Source: a virus. Taken from it: a stretch of DNA of 20,062 nt. The notes under the pieces were generated by a model. That model saw only the letters and a list, made by a program, of their open reading frames with translations. It did not search any database and was not told where the DNA came from. The translations under genes and the position numbers were made by a program. Shown here piece after piece: positions 5,390 to 20,062 of the stretch. The stretch is taken from IMG/VR virus record IMGVR_UViG_3300005095_000133, positions 1 through 20,062 of that record. One strand, written 5' to 3'. Position 1 is the stretch's first letter; each line of letters opens with the position of its first letter.

Positions 5390-7366
5390 CTAATCTGCCA
5401 CTGTAATCATGCAATCGCACCCGTCGTGCAACGGCGGGTGCCCCACCCACTGCCGCACCACGAATTCCGGCTTGGTGTCATCACCGGGCAGCACCTCGCC
5501 CTTCGCCACGAACCACCCTTCGATGCCGACCACCTGGCCATCCAGCCGCTTGCAATAGGGGCAACTCTTGTCGAATGTCACCCAAACCAAATGCTTCACG
5601 CCTAACGCCGTGAATACCCACTTCGCCACCGCGTTGTTCAGCCGGTGCGCGTTCCGCCGCGCTTCCTTATCCGCGCGCGTCGCCCGCCATTCCTCCGTCC
5701 GTGCGGTTACCGCGTCCATTGCCTCGGCCGCGTCCGCGGTGTTCACCAGTTCCCTGACCTGCCCCGCGCTGGAACCCGTCCACCGCTCGGCCAGGGTCTC
5801 CAGATACTCGTCCACGAAGCCTTCCACACCCTGGGGCGCGCCTTGGCCTTGCGTTTCTATAGAAACGCTTACCGCCTCTCCCGCGGCGGCCTCTGCCACC
5901 GCCCGCGCATAGGCCAGGAAGACCGGGCGCAGTTTGTCCTGCATCCAGCCCGCGTGCTGCTCCATGAACGTATCCAGCCACGCCAGGAAGCCCGCCGTAT
6001 CTCTCCGGCCAAGATACTTCCGCGCCGCATTCGCCACATCGTTGGCTTCTCGCCGCGCCACCCGCTCGAACGCGTCCAACAGCGCTTCGTGATGGTAGTC
6101 AATCAATTGCCGCCGTGCTGCAACCCGCTTTTCCGCCGCGCGCTGCTCCACAACCTGCAACGGCCCCGGTGCGTGCAAACTTCGCTTTTGCTGCTGCGCC
6201 ATCATGTTCATCGGCGTCCAATAGGTATCGCCACCCGGAATTGGGTTCATGTTTTCCAGGCTGCGAATGTCATTCGCACTCAGCCACCCGCCGGTGCGCC
6301 CGATGTTGTAGGCCTCGTAACGACTCTTGATGTCACCGCGCAGCAACCCATCTACCAGATGCTCGGCAAAATACCTCTTCCGCTCCGCGGGCGTCAAAAG
6401 CCGCATCCGGATCGCCTGTTCCCACCGCACCAACCACGGCCGCAGGGTGTAAACCACAAACTCGATGCCCTGGTGCTCGATGTTGCTGAACGTCGCCCGA
6501 TCTAAATCCGCCAGCATATGCGGCGGAATGCGGTACAAACGCGCAATTTCCGTGACCTGAAACTTGCGGGTTTCCAGAAATTGCGAATCCTGCGGCGGTA
6601 GCCCTACCGTTTCGATGTCCATCCCCTCTTCCAGAATGGCCGGTTTGTGGGCTTTGTCCACCCCGCTATGGGCCTCTTCCCAACTTTCTTTGAGATGCTT
6701 ATACGCGTCCTCACTCAATCTGTCGGGATGCTTCAGCACTACACCTGGACGGGCATCATTTTCAAAAAACCGCGCACCATACTCTTCTGCAGCCAGCAAC
6801 AACCACAAACTGCGCCGTGCAAGACCAACGGGTGAATACCCCACTAATCCATCAAAGCCCAACGCCGGAATATGCAGAATTTCCTCCGCGGCAAATGGCT
6901 GCCGCACGCCTTCATAGTGATATTCCAACGCACCAGCGGCATTCCGTTTGACCGTCATCTTGTCCGGGCGCAACGGCCATAATTCACGTACCCGTCCACC
7001 GTTATCACGCACAATTTGGGCATACGCATTGCCCCACGTCCCCAGGTGCGCCTGTAACGTCTCACGGAACACGACCGCTGTCATTTCAGGATTAGGCTGA
7101 TCGTGCAACAATTCATAAAGGGGATGTTTGGTTGCCCGCCGCTTGCCCCCATCTGCAGTACGCTCATAGAGAATCAGAGGCAGGCTTCCCACGCTTTCGG
7201 CAATCAATCGCACTGCGGAATACACCGCGACAATGGTAAGAGCGTTCCGCGGTGTAACCACGGGAGTTCCGCCGTTCGCCCGCAACGCCGTCCACCACTG
7301 CTTCGTCGGCAGGGTATACACCCCGCGCCGTTCAGGTAACGCTATCGCCCGCTGCAAAATGCCCAT
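5390..7366 (-). CDS. Portal protein fused to a MuF-like minor head domain
   Basis: The 658-aa protein is longer than usual HK97-family portals. Residues 1 to about 395 are a clear portal: NALTIVAVYSAVRLIAESVG, an HPLYELLHDQPNPEMT segment, HLGTWGNAYAQIVRDN, EEILHIPALGFDGLVGYSP, NDARPGVVLKHP and RIPPHMLADLDRATFSNIEH. The portal is the dodecameric ring for DNA entry and exit. After a helical linker (about 395-590), the C-terminus has CPYCKRLDGQVV (C602, C605) and HPPLHDGCDC (H643, H647, C650, C652), the metal-binding pattern of Mu gpF-like minor head proteins. The start overlaps the end of the 53-aa gene region (TGAGATG). The palindrome at 5851-5868 lies in the linker. Confidence 0.92.
   Translation of the reverse strand: MGILQRAIALPERRGVYTLPTKQWWTALRANGGTPVVTPRNALTIVAVYSAVRLIAESVGSLPLILYERTADGGKRRATKHPLYELLHDQPNPEMTAVVFRETLQAHLGTWGNAYAQIVRDNGGRVRELWPLRPDKMTVKRNAAGALEYHYEGVRQPFAAEEILHIPALGFDGLVGYSPVGLARRSLWLLLAAEEYGARFFENDARPGVVLKHPDRLSEDAYKHLKESWEEAHSGVDKAHKPAILEEGMDIETVGLPPQDSQFLETRKFQVTEIARLYRIPPHMLADLDRATFSNIEHQGIEFVVYTLRPWLVRWEQAIRMRLLTPAERKRYFAEHLVDGLLRGDIKSRYEAYNIGRTGGWLSANDIRSLENMNPIPGGDTYWTPMNMMAQQQKRSLHAPGPLQVVEQRAAEKRVAARRQLIDYHHEALLDAFERVARREANDVANAARKYLGRRDTAGFLAWLDTFMEQHAGWMQDKLRPVFLAYARAVAEAAAGEAVSVSIETQGQGAPQGVEGFVDEYLETLAERWTGSSAGQVRELVNTADAAEAMDAVTARTEEWRATRADKEARRNAHRLNNAVAKWVFTALGVKHLVWVTFDKSCPYCKRLDGQVVGIEGWFVAKGEVLPGDDTKPEFVVRQWVGHPPLHDGCDCMITVAD
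5851..5868. repeat. 18-bp palindrome GCGTTTCTATAGAAACGC, copy 1 (inside portal gene)
   Basis: A perfect palindrome inside the portal-MuF linker; on the minus strand it encodes VSIET at about residues 500-505. Three further copies occur at 9106-9125, 18,730-18,749 and, with one mismatch, 19,870-19,889. Confidence 0.9.
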
Positions 7367-9079: not shown

Positions 9080-9620
9080 CGCCGTCCTCATCCTCGCCGT
9101 CGCCACGCGTTTCTATAGAAACGCGCCCCTGCTCAACCTCATCCGCTGCCTGCGCCACCGCCGCAAACAGCATCTCCGCCAGCGATTTCCCGCCGCCACC
9201 CCCCGGCTGCACATGCACCCGCGCCCTGTCCGCGGGCGTCAACCCAAACCGTGCGGCATACTCCCGAAAGGCCTTGCTGTTATCCCGCCACACCTGCAAT
9301 AGCGGGTGTTTGCGCGGCAGCCCGCGCTCGTCCTCGGCAATCATGCCTTCCTGCTCTATCTGTCGCCATGCCTTGCTGGCCAGCGCCCAATGCTTCGCCA
9401 TAATCTCGAACGCGGGCACATCCGCGGCGGTCAGCAGTCCCATGTCCACCAGCGCCCGCGCAGCCTGGCGCCAAAACCGCGCCGCGTCCTTGTCCAATCC
9501 GCTCGGCACCCGCGGCGGTCGGCTCAACGCCTGGGCCGTAGGCTCCTCCGGCAACGCGCGCTTGCCCGGGTTCCCCTCCAACCGCTTCAACGCGGTGGGC
9601 TTCGGGGGCCTTCCCCTCAT
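9072..9620 (-). CDS. Terminase small subunit, P27 family
   Basis: The 182-aa protein opens with GRPPKPTALKRLEGNPGKR, the strongly conserved start of P27-family small terminases, followed by helices containing LTAADVPAFEIMAKHWALA and RFGLTPADRARV. It recognises the packaging site and delivers DNA to TerL. The start overlaps the HNH stop as ATGA, and the end overlaps the TerL start. The last 26 residues (EQGRVSIETRGDGEDEDGDG) are acidic and low in complexity. They contain the VSIET peptide encoded by the second palindrome copy, suggesting the repeat has been tolerated in a dispensable tail. Confidence 0.95.
   Translation of the reverse strand: MRGRPPKPTALKRLEGNPGKRALPEEPTAQALSRPPRVPSGLDKDAARFWRQAARALVDMGLLTAADVPAFEIMAKHWALASKAWRQIEQEGMIAEDERGLPRKHPLLQVWRDNSKAFREYAARFGLTPADRARVHVQPGGGGGKSLAEMLFAAVAQAADEVEQGRVSIETRGDGEDEDGDG
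9106..9125. repeat. Palindrome copy 2 (inside TerS gene)
   Basis: CGCGTTTCTATAGAAACGCG is a perfect 20-bp palindrome within the TerS C-terminal tail. Its 18-bp core equals the copy in the portal gene, and it is read in the same frame as VSIET in both proteins. Confidence 0.9.
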
Positions 9621-15734: not shown

Positions 15735-15879
15735 TGCTCTCCTCCATCTCGTCGAACAAGCCCGGCTGCTCCCCGTCAACCAGCCCGCGCCTGCCCCTTG
15801 CTCCGACCCACGCCTGTTCGTAGACGTGCGGCGGCAGGCGTCCCCATAGAGCAAGCCGGCCCGGCCGGCCCCGCGCTCC
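15727..15879 (-). pseudogene. 5'-truncated gene remnant ending in QPGLFDE
   Basis: Between an in-frame TAG (15882-15880) and TGA (15729-15727) the minus strand is open for 50 codons, ending LPPHVYEQAWVGARGRRGL, VDGEQPGLFDEMEESNA, and its stop overlaps the next start in the compact manner of neighbouring genes. It contains no ATG, GTG or TTG that would allow translation of this part, apart from a late TTG and ATG near the end. The sequence looks like the C-terminus of a real protein whose N-terminus is lost. A tRNA-like fragment lies just upstream. Alternatively a CTG start or a sequence error could rescue it. Confidence 0.45.
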
Positions 15880-15939
15880 CTACTGCGCTACCTCAAACCC
15901 GCCGCGCTCTTCCCGGCACCCACCGGCAAGGCGGGCGGA

Positions 15940-15998
15940 TTTGGGGCGGGACTTGAACCCGCGACCTGGGTATCGTTACCGACCTGCTCCCCTCGGCG
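15940..15998 (-). other. tRNA-like fragment (T-arm), not a complete tRNA
   Basis: The minus strand contains GCGGG-TTCAAGT-CCCGC (15962-15946), a perfect T-arm with G53-C61 and a canonical TTCAAGT loop, preceded by AGGTC as a variable loop and by AGCAGGTCGGTA, which resembles a D-loop. I cannot find a paired 7-bp acceptor stem nor a 5-bp anticodon stem with a 7-base loop; only GGTA-ACGA-TACC remains where the anticodon arm should be. It is best described as a degenerate tRNA or a tRNA-derived remnant. The surrounding 15,880-16,083 gap holds no intact gene. Confidence 0.5.
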
Positions 15999-16856: not shown

Positions 16857-16908
16857 CGTTCTCCTCTCCTGCCAGATGTCATTTATCACCTGCCGCCAGG
16901 CAATTTAG

Positions 16909-16937
16909 AGTATACAACACTTGTAAACAGTTGTCAA
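16909..16937 (-). promoter_or_regulatory. Main leftward early promoter (PL/PR-like)
   Basis: Reading leftwards: TTGACA (16937-16932), a 17-base spacer, TATACT (16914-16909). The -35 is perfect and the -10 has five of six consensus bases, making it the best promoter in the window. It drives the minus-strand phage genes. The inverted repeat at 16,918-16,940 covers its -35 and spacer, so repressor binding there would block it. Confidence 0.92.
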
Positions 16938-16940
16938 GTG
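16918..16940. promoter_or_regulatory. Operator-like inverted repeat over the early promoter
   Basis: CACTTG (16918-16923), 11 bases, CAAGTG (16935-16940). An overlapping pair ACAAC/GTTGT (16914-16918, 16930-16934) adds symmetry. Its place over the -35 and spacer of the leftward promoter, beside a divergent XRE repressor, is that of a phage operator. Confidence 0.7.
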
Positions 16941-16958
16941 GCAGATAATAAGACGCCA

Positions 16959-16972
16959 CAGGCAATTGCCTG
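16959..16972. promoter_or_regulatory. Second operator-like palindrome CAGGCAATTGCCTG
   Basis: A perfect 14-bp palindrome upstream of the repressor gene. A half-copy, CAGGCAATT, lies at 16,897-16,905 near the start point of the leftward promoter. Repressor bound at both could loop or regulate its own synthesis. Confidence 0.65.
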
Positions 16973-16977
16973 CGCGC

Positions 16978-16983
16978 TATAGT
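16978..16983 (+). promoter_or_regulatory. -10 element for near-leaderless repressor transcript
   Basis: TATAGT lies 10 bases before the repressor ATG, so the transcript would start at or within a few bases of the start codon, as for lambda PRM. No Shine-Dalgarno precedes the ATG. A -35 match is poor, and the palindrome at 16,959-16,972 sits where an activator or autoregulator would bind. Confidence 0.55.
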
Positions 16984-16993
16984 TTATTAGCCT

Positions 16994-17380
16994 ATGGACA
17001 ATTTCACTGAATGGCTTGAAAACGAACTGAACAAAAGAAATTGGGATAGAGCCGAACTTGCTCGAAGAGCACGTTTAGCTACATCCACTGTTACGCGCAT
17101 TATGAACGGCGAAAGGTCTCCTGGACCTGATTTTTGCCGTTCTGTTGCTCGCGCTCTCAACCTCCCCCCCGAAACCGTCTTCCGCAAGGCTGGTCTTCTT
17201 CCCCAAAAGCCCGATACCGACCCCGAAATCGAAGAAGCCCTCCATCTACTCTCTCAACTCCCCGGCCCCGTCCGCAAACTCGTCCTCCTCCAAATCCGCG
17301 CCCTCGCCGAAGCCCCAAACCTCCAGGTCACCCCCGCGCCCGCCAAACACGGCAAAACCTCCACAGCCCACGGCGCATGA
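16994..17380 (+). CDS. XRE-family phage repressor (CI-like), short form
   Basis: The 128-aa product has an N-terminal HTH_XRE domain: RNWDRAELARRARLATSTVT (helices 2-3 about 17-36), RIMNGERSPGPDFCRSVARA and LNLPPETVFRKAGLLP. A helical segment (EEALHLLSQLPGPVRKLVLL) follows and then a Pro/Ala/Lys tail. It is divergent from the early operon with operator-like palindromes between them, the classic immunity-region layout. It lacks the S24 peptidase domain that gives CI/LexA repressors RecA-triggered self-cleavage, so induction must work otherwise. The start ATG at 16994 is near-leaderless. Two plus-strand genes follow at once, probably co-transcribed. Confidence 0.9.
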   Translation: MDNFTEWLENELNKRNWDRAELARRARLATSTVTRIMNGERSPGPDFCRSVARALNLPPETVFRKAGLLPQKPDTDPEIEEALHLLSQLPGPVRKLVLLQIRALAEAPNLQVTPAPAKHGKTSTAHGA

Positions 17381-17403
17381 TTTCCCTCAATAGGGGGCTT
17401 TCA

Positions 17404-18174
17404 ATGGCCGAAGACATCATCAACATCCGCACCCGCATTGCCGGAACCTCCCGCCGTCAAAAATGGGTCTGGCACCTCGAAAACGACACCCCCGTCTACC
17501 TCGAACGCGAACCCCAAAACCCCTACGACCCCAACGCCATCGCCGTCTATGCCGAAATCCCCCACCACGGCCATAAACAAATCGGCTACATCCCCCGCGA
17601 AATCGCCGCCGACATCGCCCCCTACCTCGACCAGGGCTACACATCTTCCGCCCGTATCATCGCCCTCTTTGGCGGCGAGCCAGGCAAACCTACCCGTGGC
17701 CTCGCCCTCAGCATCACTCTCAAAAAAGCACAACCCCGCGCCAAACGCACAACCCCAAAGCCAAAACCACAACCCAAACCTGAACCCCAACCCGCGCCAA
17801 CAACGTCGCCAAAAGAAGCCGAAACACCGCCCCTCCCGCCAAAAAACCTTCCCCTCGCCTGGCTCCTCTTCTTCCTCACGGCCATTGCCCTCCTCGTCGC
17901 CCTGGCTTTCGCCCCCCTGCTCGCCATCAGCGCGGCAATCGTTCTTGTTCTCCTCACCATCTTCATCAGCCCCCAATCCCTCACCTGCCCCACCGAAGCC
18001 CACATCATCTTCGGCGGCCTCACGATTCTCATTGCATTCATCTCCCTGCCTGTTTACCTCAACGGCGCATCCCCAAGCACCACCCACACTTTCACAGCCC
18101 TTCTTGCCACAGCAACCGCCTTCACCGCCTACACCTGGGGGAAAAGCCTCGCCTGTCCACGGAAACAACCATGA
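17404..18174 (+). CDS. HIRAN-domain protein with C-terminal membrane segments
   Basis: The 256-aa protein has a HIRAN domain at about residues 8-107: IRTRIAGTSRRQK, VYLEREPQNPYDPNAIAVYA (the diagnostic NPYDPNAI-V) and KQIGYIPREIAADI (IGYIPR), ending in GLALSITL. HIRAN domains bind 3' DNA ends in fork-remodelling helicases such as HLTF and also occur alone in bacteria. A Pro/Lys linker (about 108-148, KPKPQPKPEPQP) leads to about four hydrophobic segments (150-170, 171-190, 200-219, 228-245). Such a membrane-tethered HIRAN is not a layout I know. ATG at 17404 starts the domain and lies 24 bases after the repressor stop; the open frame upstream is the repressor's shadow. Confidence 0.85.
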   Translation: MAEDIINIRTRIAGTSRRQKWVWHLENDTPVYLEREPQNPYDPNAIAVYAEIPHHGHKQIGYIPREIAADIAPYLDQGYTSSARIIALFGGEPGKPTRGLALSITLKKAQPRAKRTTPKPKPQPKPEPQPAPTTSPKEAETPPLPPKNLPLAWLLFFLTAIALLVALAFAPLLAISAAIVLVLLTIFISPQSLTCPTEAHIIFGGLTILIAFISLPVYLNGASPSTTHTFTALLATATAFTAYTWGKSLACPRKQP

Positions 18175-18731
18175 ACGATTTCGAACAATACCGCCACCGT
18201 CTCCACAACCTCAAACGCTCCCCTTACTTCCGCATCCTTATTGCTGAAATACGTGCACTCCACGCCTTTTTCACCCTGCTTCTCACCATCTCCCCCCGCC
18301 GCCTCTTCCTCATCGCCGTCACCTTCTCCCCCGAAGCGCTCACCATTATCTTCCATTATCTCTCGTTCATCCTTCCGCCCCTTACCATCTTCTTTCTCTC
18401 CCTTGCTGTTTACACTCCCTACACCCTTATCACCATCCTTGACGCCACCACCACCCCCCTCCTCGCTACCGCCGCCACCTTCTATCTTGCCTACTTCCTC
18501 CGCCGCGGCCAGGCCTGGGCTCCTCGCATTTTCTCCCCCATTCCCTGGGCCTCCCTTCGCCTCGCTCTCCTTGCCATCCTCACCGCCAATCTCGCCCTTT
18601 CCCTTCCTTTTACCTTACCCGCCCTCTTTCTCTCCATCACCTCCATGACCGCCGCTCTCGTCCTCATGCACTACACCACCTTCATCCTCGCCGCCGACAT
18701 CTTCGTCCCACGCCGCATCCGCCTTGTTTAG
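18171..18731 (+). CDS. Polytopic membrane protein coupled to the HIRAN gene
   Basis: The 186-aa product (MNDFEQYRHRLHNLKRSPYF...) has a basic N-terminal helix and about five hydrophobic segments at roughly 27-50, 56-82, 92-110, 127-147 and 149-175, and ends in RRIRLV. No enzymatic motif is visible. Its ATG overlaps the HIRAN stop as ATGA, so the two are translated together and may form a complex in the membrane. The stop TAG overlaps the third palindrome copy, which with the following T-rich bases could end the transcript. I do not recognise a family. In an operon behind a prophage repressor, superinfection exclusion or defence is a reasonable guess. Confidence 0.75.
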   Translation: MNDFEQYRHRLHNLKRSPYFRILIAEIRALHAFFTLLLTISPRRLFLIAVTFSPEALTIIFHYLSFILPPLTIFFLSLAVYTPYTLITILDATTTPLLATAATFYLAYFLRRGQAWAPRIFSPIPWASLRLALLAILTANLALSLPFTLPALFLSITSMTAALVLMHYTTFILAADIFVPRRIRLV

Positions 18732-18749
18732 CGTTTCTATAGAAACGCT
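18730..18749. repeat. Palindrome copy 3, also terminator-like
   Basis: AGCGTTTCTATAGAAACGCT is a perfect 20-bp palindrome beginning in the stop codon of the membrane protein gene. On the plus strand it can fold as an 8-bp stem with a TATA loop followed by TTCTTTTTC, so it may serve as the terminator of the repressor operon. Confidence 0.8.
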
Positions 18750-18824
18750 TTCTTTTTCATCACACCAATAAAATAAAATGTTTTCATACTTTTTAGAAAA
18801 AACCCTCCCAAATTTCAAAAAATA

Positions 18825-18833
18825 TGCTATACT
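18825..18833 (+). promoter_or_regulatory. Extended -10 promoter of the structured RNA
   Basis: TGCTATACT is a TGn-extended -10 with five of six hexamer bases, within an AT-rich stretch (18,750-18,840) in otherwise GC-rich DNA. There is no good -35, which extended -10 promoters can do without. The start point would be at about 18,839-18,842. Confidence 0.65.
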
Positions 18834-18840
18834 AGATACA

Positions 18841-18991
18841 CGGGGCCGTTACGGCTTGGGCAGCATACTGGCCCGAACAACCATAACGGAGGTTGTTCAT
18901 AAGTCCAAGTCCCTGCTGCCGACAACCGCCATTCGTATCACAAACATCGGGCGTGCGCAAGAGGCGCTACCAACGCCCGATGTTTGTTTTT
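18841..18991 (+). ncRNA. Structured RNA upstream of DUF3800 gene
   Basis: About 150 nt with no ORF of note. Elements: CCGTTA (18846-18851); GGCAGCA (18859-18865) paired with TGCTGCC (18914-18920); within it a perfect 8-bp hairpin GAACAACC/GGTTGTTC (18875-18882, 18891-18898) with loop ATAACGGA, whose TAACGG is complementary to the upstream CCGTTA, giving a pseudoknot. CTTGG (18855-18859) and CCAAG (18905-18909) offer a further crossing or alternative helix. A terminator hairpin ends the RNA. Structured RNAs named DUF3800 motifs were reported upstream of DUF3800 genes in comparative searches; I cannot say whether this belongs to one of them. It may be a free RNA or a leader of the DUF3800 message. 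Confidence 0.75.
18941..18991 (+). terminator. Intrinsic terminator between the RNA and DUF3800
   Basis: CAAACATCGGGCGT (18941-18954) pairs perfectly over 14 bp with ACGCCCGATGTTTG (18973-18986); the loop can form a GCGC-AAGAG-GCGC mini-stem. TTTTT (18987-18991) follows directly. The DUF3800 Shine-Dalgarno begins seven bases later, so expression of DUF3800 would need read-through or attenuation. Confidence 0.92.
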
Positions 18992-19011
18992 AAACCCGGA
19001 GGAACACATCA

Positions 19012-19836
19012 ATGTACATCCTCTTCCTCGATGAATCCGGTAAAGCCCCCACCGATACCCACTTCATCCTCGGCGGTCTCGCCGTCTTCGAAGGCCTGCT
19101 TTACTCCCTTCGTGACGGCCTCGACCGCATCATGGCCGAAACCTTTCCAGATGACCCCCATAAGGTTTTTCACGCCAGCGAACTCTATCGCCAAATGAGC
19201 AATGGCCAACTCCCCGGCTTTGAAAGAACACACTACATCGCCCTACTCAATGCCATCGCCAATCTTATCGTCCGCTACAACTACGCCTACCATGACCATA
19301 CCCGCCCCGGCGTCATTCTTGTCGGGCAGGTCATCGAGCGCGCCGCCGTCAGTCCTCCCCAAAACGCGTCAAAAGACGACAATCTTCCCTACTACCTCGA
19401 AGGCTTCAAAGGCGCCCTCACCCGCTTCCACGGCTTCCTCCGCGACCTCGATAGCGAAGGCAACCCCCAACACGGCCTTGCCGTCATGGCCACCTGGAAA
19501 CAGCAATCCCACAATACCCTCAAACAAACCTACGCCATCTATCGCGAAGAAGGCACACACCTCGGCTACATCTCCCGCATCCCCATCCTCCCTCTTTTTA
19601 CCGAAAGCGCCTCCACCCGACTCCTCCAACTCGCCGACATGGTTGCCTACGCCCTCCACCGCGCCTATAACCGCGACGACTGGAAGTACTTCCGCCCCCT
19701 CGCCCCCGCCTTCTACAAAAAAGGCGGCGTCTTCGCCACCCTTTACCACAAAACAACCCAAAGCGAACAATGTCCCTGCCCCGCTTGCGTAAGTCGGCAA
19801 CGATTCCAGCCCCCCCTCCCCAAATTCCCTACATAA
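19012..19836 (+). CDS. DUF3800 protein
   Basis: The 274-aa protein is a full-length DUF3800 member: the opening MYILFLDESGKAP (D7, E8, S9) followed by HFILGGLAVFE, the HASEL motif (about 54-58), and the late LLQLADMVAYALHRAYN (D209). These conserved acidic and polar residues suggest a nuclease-like, RNase H-type active site, though the activity of the family is not established. The C-terminus adds CPCPAC (C254, C256, C259), a possible metal site. GGAGG stands nine bases before ATG 19012. The only upstream element is the structured RNA with its terminator, so the two probably form one functional unit. DUF3800 genes are common near phage-related and defence loci. Confidence 0.92.
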   Translation: MYILFLDESGKAPTDTHFILGGLAVFEGLLYSLRDGLDRIMAETFPDDPHKVFHASELYRQMSNGQLPGFERTHYIALLNAIANLIVRYNYAYHDHTRPGVILVGQVIERAAVSPPQNASKDDNLPYYLEGFKGALTRFHGFLRDLDSEGNPQHGLAVMATWKQQSHNTLKQTYAIYREEGTHLGYISRIPILPLFTESASTRLLQLADMVAYALHRAYNRDDWKYFRPLAPAFYKKGGVFATLYHKTTQSEQCPCPACVSRQRFQPPLPKFPT

Positions 19837-19869
19837 TCACCACGCTGGCGCCCGAAACTAATTGCCCGC

Positions 19870-19889
19870 AGCGTTTCTATAGAAATGCT
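19870..19889. repeat. Palindrome copy 4 (one mismatch)
   Basis: AGCGTTTCTATAGAAATGCT differs from copy 3 only by C to T in the right arm. It lies in the 77-base gap between the DUF3800 and lipoprotein genes, which holds nothing else I can identify. Confidence 0.85.
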
Positions 19890-19913
19890 CACCCACACTC
19901 AAAAGGGGAAATC

Positions 19914-20062
19914 ATGTCCACTAAACGCCTCATCCTCCTCACCCTAATCGCCGCCCTCGCCATCGTAGCGTGCACCCAAACCGCGCCACCCCCTACACCC
20001 ACGCCACCCCCACCAACATCCACAAACACCCCTCTCCCCTCGCAAACTCCAACCCCCACCGA
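19914..20062 (+). CDS. Lipoprotein, N-terminus only (cut by window end)
   Basis: The first 49 codons encode MSTKRLILLTLIAALAIVAC, a signal peptide with basic start, hydrophobic core and lipobox IVAC (lipidated C20), followed by TQTAPPPTPTPPPPTSTNTP and further Pro/Thr repeats. This linker presumably holds an extracytoplasmic domain away from the membrane; the domain itself lies beyond the window, so function cannot be judged. GGGG eight bases before the ATG is the likely Shine-Dalgarno. Pro/Thr-rich linkers directly after the lipidated Cys are common in Chloroflexota lipoproteins. It looks like a host gene rather than a phage gene. Confidence 0.85.
   Translation, partial: MSTKRLILLTLIAALAIVACTQTAPPPTPTPPPPTSTNTPLPSQTPTPT

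Follow-up and report, generated by a model that had tools for sequence, protein, structure and literature searches.

A predicted phage RNA ending in a terminator lies upstream of a DUF3800 gene, and the pair is possibly a diverged copy of an RNA-DUF3800 module

The window examined here, that is, the whole 20,062-nt stretch of a 20-kb virus record, carries on its minus strand genes apparently for phage structure and packaging, and its terminase-like gene has hundreds of relatives in viral contigs. Near the right end, the genes run rightward: that of an HTH repressor is at 16994, those of a HIRAN-domain protein and a predicted membrane protein come after it, and the RNA-DUF3800 unit follows. The HIRAN-domain gene (17134-18174, +) adjoins the repressor gene, and its product showed weak similarity to the PADLOC candidate defence models PDC-M03B. 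A sibling phage of about 83% nucleotide identity (L023) stops short of the RNA-DUF3800 region, and no DNA relatives of positions 16900-20062 were found among phages.

The unit comprises, in order, an extended -10 promoter, an RNA body of about 98 nt, a terminator, a Shine-Dalgarno sequence and the DUF3800 gene (Table 1), and transcription likely starts at about 18840-18842. An earlier note, made from the sequence of this DNA, had described an extended -10 promoter and a well-started DUF3800 gene, and both were found: the promoter reads TGC-TATACT, accompanied by a weak -35 element, and the gene has the ribosome-binding sequence, start codon and length given in Table 1 together with a Pfam match. 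The terminator described there is present as well, but its stem is a perfect 15 bp rather than 14 bp and its T-run is T4-T5. This stem was equalled in 0 of 3000 shuffles and is thus far beyond chance.

Table 1. Features of the RNA-DUF3800 unit in window coordinates
Feature	Position	Strand	Details	Basis
Extended -10 promoter, TG-C-TATACT	18825-18833	+	TATACT at 18828-18833; -35 weak	Sequence; same placement in most relatives
Predicted small RNA, body	18841-18938	+	98 nt	
CCGUUA	18846-18851	+	Complementary to 18884-18889	
GGCAGCA	18859-18865	+	Pairs with 18914-18920 as the 5′ arm of a 7-bp helix (minimum-energy fold)	
8-bp hairpin GAACAACC/GGUUGUUC, loop AUAACGGA	18875-18898	+	Arms 18875-18882/18891-18898	
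UAACGG, in hairpin loop	18884-18889	+	Partner of 18846-18851	
Intrinsic terminator	18940-18991	+	Perfect 15-bp stem 18940-18954/18973-18987 and T-run (T4-T5)	
Shine-Dalgarno, GGAGG	18998-19002	+	9 nt 5′ of ATG	
DUF3800 gene	19012-19836	+	ATG at 19012; 274 codons, intact frame	

The encoded protein matched PF12686 (DUF3800) with 54.2 bits against a Pfam gathering cut-off of 21 (E = 3.5e-14), whereas PADLOC and NCBIfam returned nothing and no relative by sequence was found in the PDB. Its AlphaFold2 model had a pLDDT of 87.7, and the best PDB structure matches of the model were RNase HII/H2 (E about 1e-4), a D107N variant of Thermotoga maritima (T. maritima) RNase H2 being among the matches. From this model, an RNase H2-like fold is predicted for the protein. 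DUF3800 has been described as an RNase H fold with catalytic rearrangement (PMC10910872).

In the predicted topology, D7 and E8 close strand 1, position 160 closes a later strand, and D209 lies within a late helix. The fold, the D-E pair closing the first strand and the Asp in the late helix are thus shared with RNase HII/RNase H2; the identity, however, is only about 11%, an extra H/C3 cluster occurs at the C terminus, and the presumed third catalytic position lacks an acidic residue in the window protein. Judging from the topology and from the layout of RNase H2 active sites, position 160 would be catalytic. It is Ala in the window, whereas the 35 sampled DUF3800 relatives have Asp (33) or Glu (2), leaving the protein without the full set of RNase-H2-like active-site acidic residues. 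Two further positions at which relatives mostly have Glu, 133 and 192, are altered as well. Because Ala160 stands where relatives have Asp, the window protein is predicted to be non-cutting or poorly cutting; it is possibly catalytically dead and may act solely as an RNA-binding partner. Residues D7, E8, Q206 and D209 are kept, and so is the C-terminal H246/C254/C256/C259 cluster, which is common to the window protein and its nearest clade and whose retention argues against simple decay. Single-protein scans of viral and genome collections returned no close relatives.

The RNA body is predicted from its sequence to be a diverged DUF3800-associated RNA outside known families. It had been proposed to form a pseudoknot through an 8-bp hairpin whose loop complements an upstream hexamer. 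The hairpin and the complementarity both held up: when the 98-nt body was dinucleotide-shuffled, 0.9% of the shuffles contained a perfect hairpin of at least 8 bp, and a match to the loop as long as CCGUUA/UAACGG arose in about 3% of shuffles. In the minimum-energy fold (about -32.0 to -32.5 kcal/mol), the RNA forms a 5′ hairpin, which encloses the region of CCGUUA, and a rod ending in the 8-bp hairpin. In an alternative two-hairpin fold (-26.0 kcal/mol), both hexamers pair as a nested helix. Since the same hexamers fit this nested helix, and the searches turned up no homologous RNA in which covariation could be followed, the pseudoknot is treated as unproven; the complementarity is real but weak evidence for it. 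The folding z-score of the whole element was -4.7, mostly because of the terminator, compared with -1.1 to -1.7 for the 98-nt body alone; true members of the RNA family ranged from +0.3 to -4.1.

The nearest proteins found share 24-36% identity with the window protein and occur in phages, plasmids, viral contigs and chromosomes. Upstream of them, one layout recurred, namely a sigma-70-type promoter, a compact RNA, a terminator, a Shine-Dalgarno sequence and the DUF3800 gene. In the tree, the window protein grouped with 23 proteins (support 93/96); its branch is long (1.8), so that its position is unsure. All 23 of these other clade members carry a three-way-junction RNA just 5′ of the gene, mostly Rfam DUF3800-VI, and every DUF3800 observed in the clade came with an RNA. 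In most relatives, the promoter immediately precedes the RNA; clade members usually also have a terminator separating the RNA from the gene, with a long and mostly perfect stem. A terminator-ended RNA paired with a DUF3800 gene, as first noticed in the window, is thus a recurrent arrangement in phages, on plasmids and in chromosomes. That structured RNAs lie upstream of DUF3800 genes was already known, as the Rfam DUF3800 families attest, and the association is cited in PMC10910872, in line with the earlier note's description of a reported, functionally unexplained class. An incomplete literature search found no paper on DUF3800-VI, and earlier proposals may exist. In the Pseudomonas phages FBPa47 and Marin (L002, L003), the RNA-terminator-DUF3800 unit is found downstream of genes for a CI-like repressor and for a protein annotated as BRCT or ligase, just as the window unit lies downstream of an HTH repressor.

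RF02915, the model of DUF3800-VI, matched the RNA in most relatives' loci. Our own model R1, built on 17 RNA units with strong covariation, found more members at the expected place in four loci (L114, L016, L015 and L009), and also in L122/L127, L123/L129, L126 and L128; the RNAs of L019, L130 and L131 form the same kind of three-way junction by fold. In an unfitted alignment, two-sided changes occurred at 13 of the 20 pairs of the junction (51 two-sided cells versus 16.1 in shuffles), and in a larger, model-fitted alignment at 18 of 20 (112 cells versus 31.9). A genome search with the RNA model was insensitive (4 of 399 genomes), and protein searches were therefore used; none was found in a Bacteroidota sample. 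A second three-way-junction RNA subclass was also observed (L131:2364-2424 (-), L146:2911-2971, L147:2915-2976 and L149:354-413); its four members have the P1 helix GCGUC...GUCGC, lie 5′ of DUF3800 genes of about 300 aa with a C-terminal CxCxxC, and had no match in Rfam.

Like a DUF3800-VI locus, the window has an RNA just 5′ of a DUF3800 gene belonging to this clade, a promoter at the RNA start and a terminator before the gene. Its RNA differs, however, in being longer (about 98 versus about 52 nt) and in remaining at background with RF02915 and with our models: no match was obtained with RF02915 at E ≤ 10, at most 5.9 bits with R1 and R2, and 4.8 bits with R3, the model of the second subclass, whose members score 72-83. 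A three-way junction can be drawn in the window RNA, at most a few percent of the ensemble adopting it; when forced, it reached -20.7 kcal/mol compared with -32.0 for the best fold, and the candidate was rejected. The covariance models of Rfam 15, other DUF3800 motifs included, also gave no match. Two of the outcomes that the earlier note would have taken as refutation, no Rfam match and no demonstrated covariation, thus apply to this RNA, but its setting among relatives speaks for a functional unit. The window copy is a double outlier, with an RNA having no confident three-way junction or model match and a protein having Ala160; either RNA and protein diverged jointly, as expected of interacting partners, or both are drifting.

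Tandem RNA units, two each and separated by a fixed 5-nt spacer, were found in three lineages (L106/L107, L108 and L126), and the tandem copies are as unlike as 33 of 51 identical positions. Judged by fold alone, a second unit that has diverged is apparently present in L114. In L126 (1448-1551), the tandem DUF3800-VI RNAs precede a truncated DUF3800, and in L124 (1501-1556, -) and L125 (1501-1554, -) a DUF3800-VI RNA is present and DUF3800 is absent from the fetched flanks. The window RNA is a single unit, with no tandem copy found.

Type III toxin-antitoxin loci consist of a single promoter, a repeat RNA, a Rho-independent terminator and a toxin gene (PMC5086642). The window resembles such systems (ToxIN, CptIN and TenpIN) in its predicted single promoter, structured RNA, Rho-independent terminator and nuclease-fold gene and in its mobile-element setting, and its relatives resemble them in their tandem RNA units. 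It differs in that the protein is predicted to be RNase H2-like and not of the ToxN/CptN/TenpN-type fold, and in that the relatives' units are three-way junctions of about 52 nt in one or two copies, with one unit in the window. Type III systems are further marked by a pseudoknotted antitoxin RNA, by toxicity that the RNA neutralises and by processing of the RNA by the protein; on the first of these, the window shows the loop complementarity expected in about 3% of shuffles, along with the possible nested alternative. We give a probability of about 0.45 to the reading that the window holds a phage-borne RNA-DUF3800 ribonucleoprotein module that has diverged from its relatives, type III-like in its working though not a member of type III. 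In such a module, the single promoter would start transcription at the 5′ end of the RNA, and the intrinsic terminator would release an RNA of about 150 nt; because of this release, the RNA would be in excess and the DUF3800 mRNA would arise by read-through only. By analogy with the antitoxin RNAs that hold ToxN, the RNA would bind the DUF3800 protein into an inactive or poised ribonucleoprotein. The module would serve maintenance or phage defence on mobile elements, and its prophage-type location, on the repressor side in the immunity region, would allow expression by the lysogen. The sequences themselves show the layout, the covariation and tandem units of relatives, the predicted fold and the missing acidic residue; from these we infer the RNA-protein binding, the inhibition, the toxicity, the role in maintenance or defence and the loss of catalysis. 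Against this reading, we counted the window RNA's failure to match RF02915 or our own models, its poor three-way junction, its single unit and the long branch of the protein, as well as the Rfam label discussed next.

The earlier note had left two options, an attenuator and a separate RNA working with the protein. As an attenuator, the leader would act in cis: on sensing a ligand, or else its own DUF3800 protein, it would allow or block passage through the terminator. Rfam labels DUF3800-VI cis-regulatory, the RNA and terminator lie 5′ of the gene in nearly all loci, the competing folds of the window RNA lie within about 6 kcal/mol of each other, and in four loci (L103, L104, L015 and L019) the terminator is formed by P1 and the U-run of the RNA itself. 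However, complementarity between the RNA and the 5′ arm of the terminator was not above that in shuffles (mean z 0.19, 15 loci), so that antitermination was rejected as giving no signal; furthermore, the RNA units occur in tandem and persist without the gene, and the terminators are long and mostly perfect. Because of the tandem units, the gene-less RNAs, the RNA's own adjacent promoter and the missing terminator-arm complementarity, the separate RNA fits better and the attenuator, which we regard as unlikely, less well.

A separate RNA could instead activate or direct the RNase-H-like nuclease as a cofactor or guide, as in RNA-guided systems, and not inhibit it. The RNase H2-like fold and the structured RNA adjoining the gene throughout the clade would suit this role, and DUF3800 accompanies some Cas12a2 and VI-F CRISPR loci (PMC10910872, PMC12669027), whose accessory proteins likewise tie an RNase-H-fold DUF3800 domain to an RNA-based system. 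Unlike those loci, the window showed neither a CRISPR array nor a Cas protein or TPR domain next to the gene. Moreover, the DUF3800-VI units are compact and have no evident variable guide segment, and Asp is missing from the presumed catalytic position of the window protein; we consider a cofactor or guide rather improbable. Less probable again is an ordinary 5′ untranslated region with an unrelated terminator, a decaying RNA and a degenerate, non-functional DUF3800 cargo, to which the absent model match, the modest body z-score, the lost acidic residues and the absence of a close homologue from viral and genome collections would point, but which fits poorly with an intact 274-codon frame with Shine-Dalgarno, the retained H246/C254/C256/C259 and D7/Q206/D209, the high-confidence fold, and a perfect 15-bp terminator and extended -10 placed exactly as in relatives.

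Returning to the ribonucleoprotein module, the present analysis adds to the known association the type III-like reading, the lack of any signal of antitermination, the variant with Ala160, and a second subclass of three-way-junction RNAs. The type III-like layout of promoter, tandem RNA units, terminator and RNase-H2-like gene offers a directly testable explanation. If the reading is true, a new enzyme fold would join the RNA-neutralised toxin systems, and the window copy would offer a naturally occurring active-site change for telling RNA binding from cleavage. It is a long shot that the DUF3800 modules form a novel class of toxin or defence systems that are RNA-neutralised and built on the RNase H2 fold, and that the phage deploys a catalytically dead version with a re-made RNA as a pseudo-toxin or decoy against host or rival modules.

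Elsewhere in the window, a weak YrlA-like match at 15850-15985 (-) contains a tRNA T-arm-like stretch, GCGGGTTCAAGTCCCGC, and perhaps represents an attachment-site remnant of a tRNA 3′ end. A Chloroflexota host is our guess from a Thr/Pro-rich lipoprotein. The palindrome GCGTTTCTATAGAAACGC occurs at 5851-5868, 9107-9124, 18731-18748 and, imperfectly, 19870-19889, with 0.01 copies expected. A search for it in 257 billion bases gave three scattered matches, which is about chance, and the 20-mer was not found in viral contigs. The copies at 18731-18748 and 19870-19889 flank the promoter-RNA-DUF3800 unit, and at the position equivalent to 5851-5868 the sibling phage L023 carries another perfect palindrome, GCGTTCCCGCGGGAACGC.
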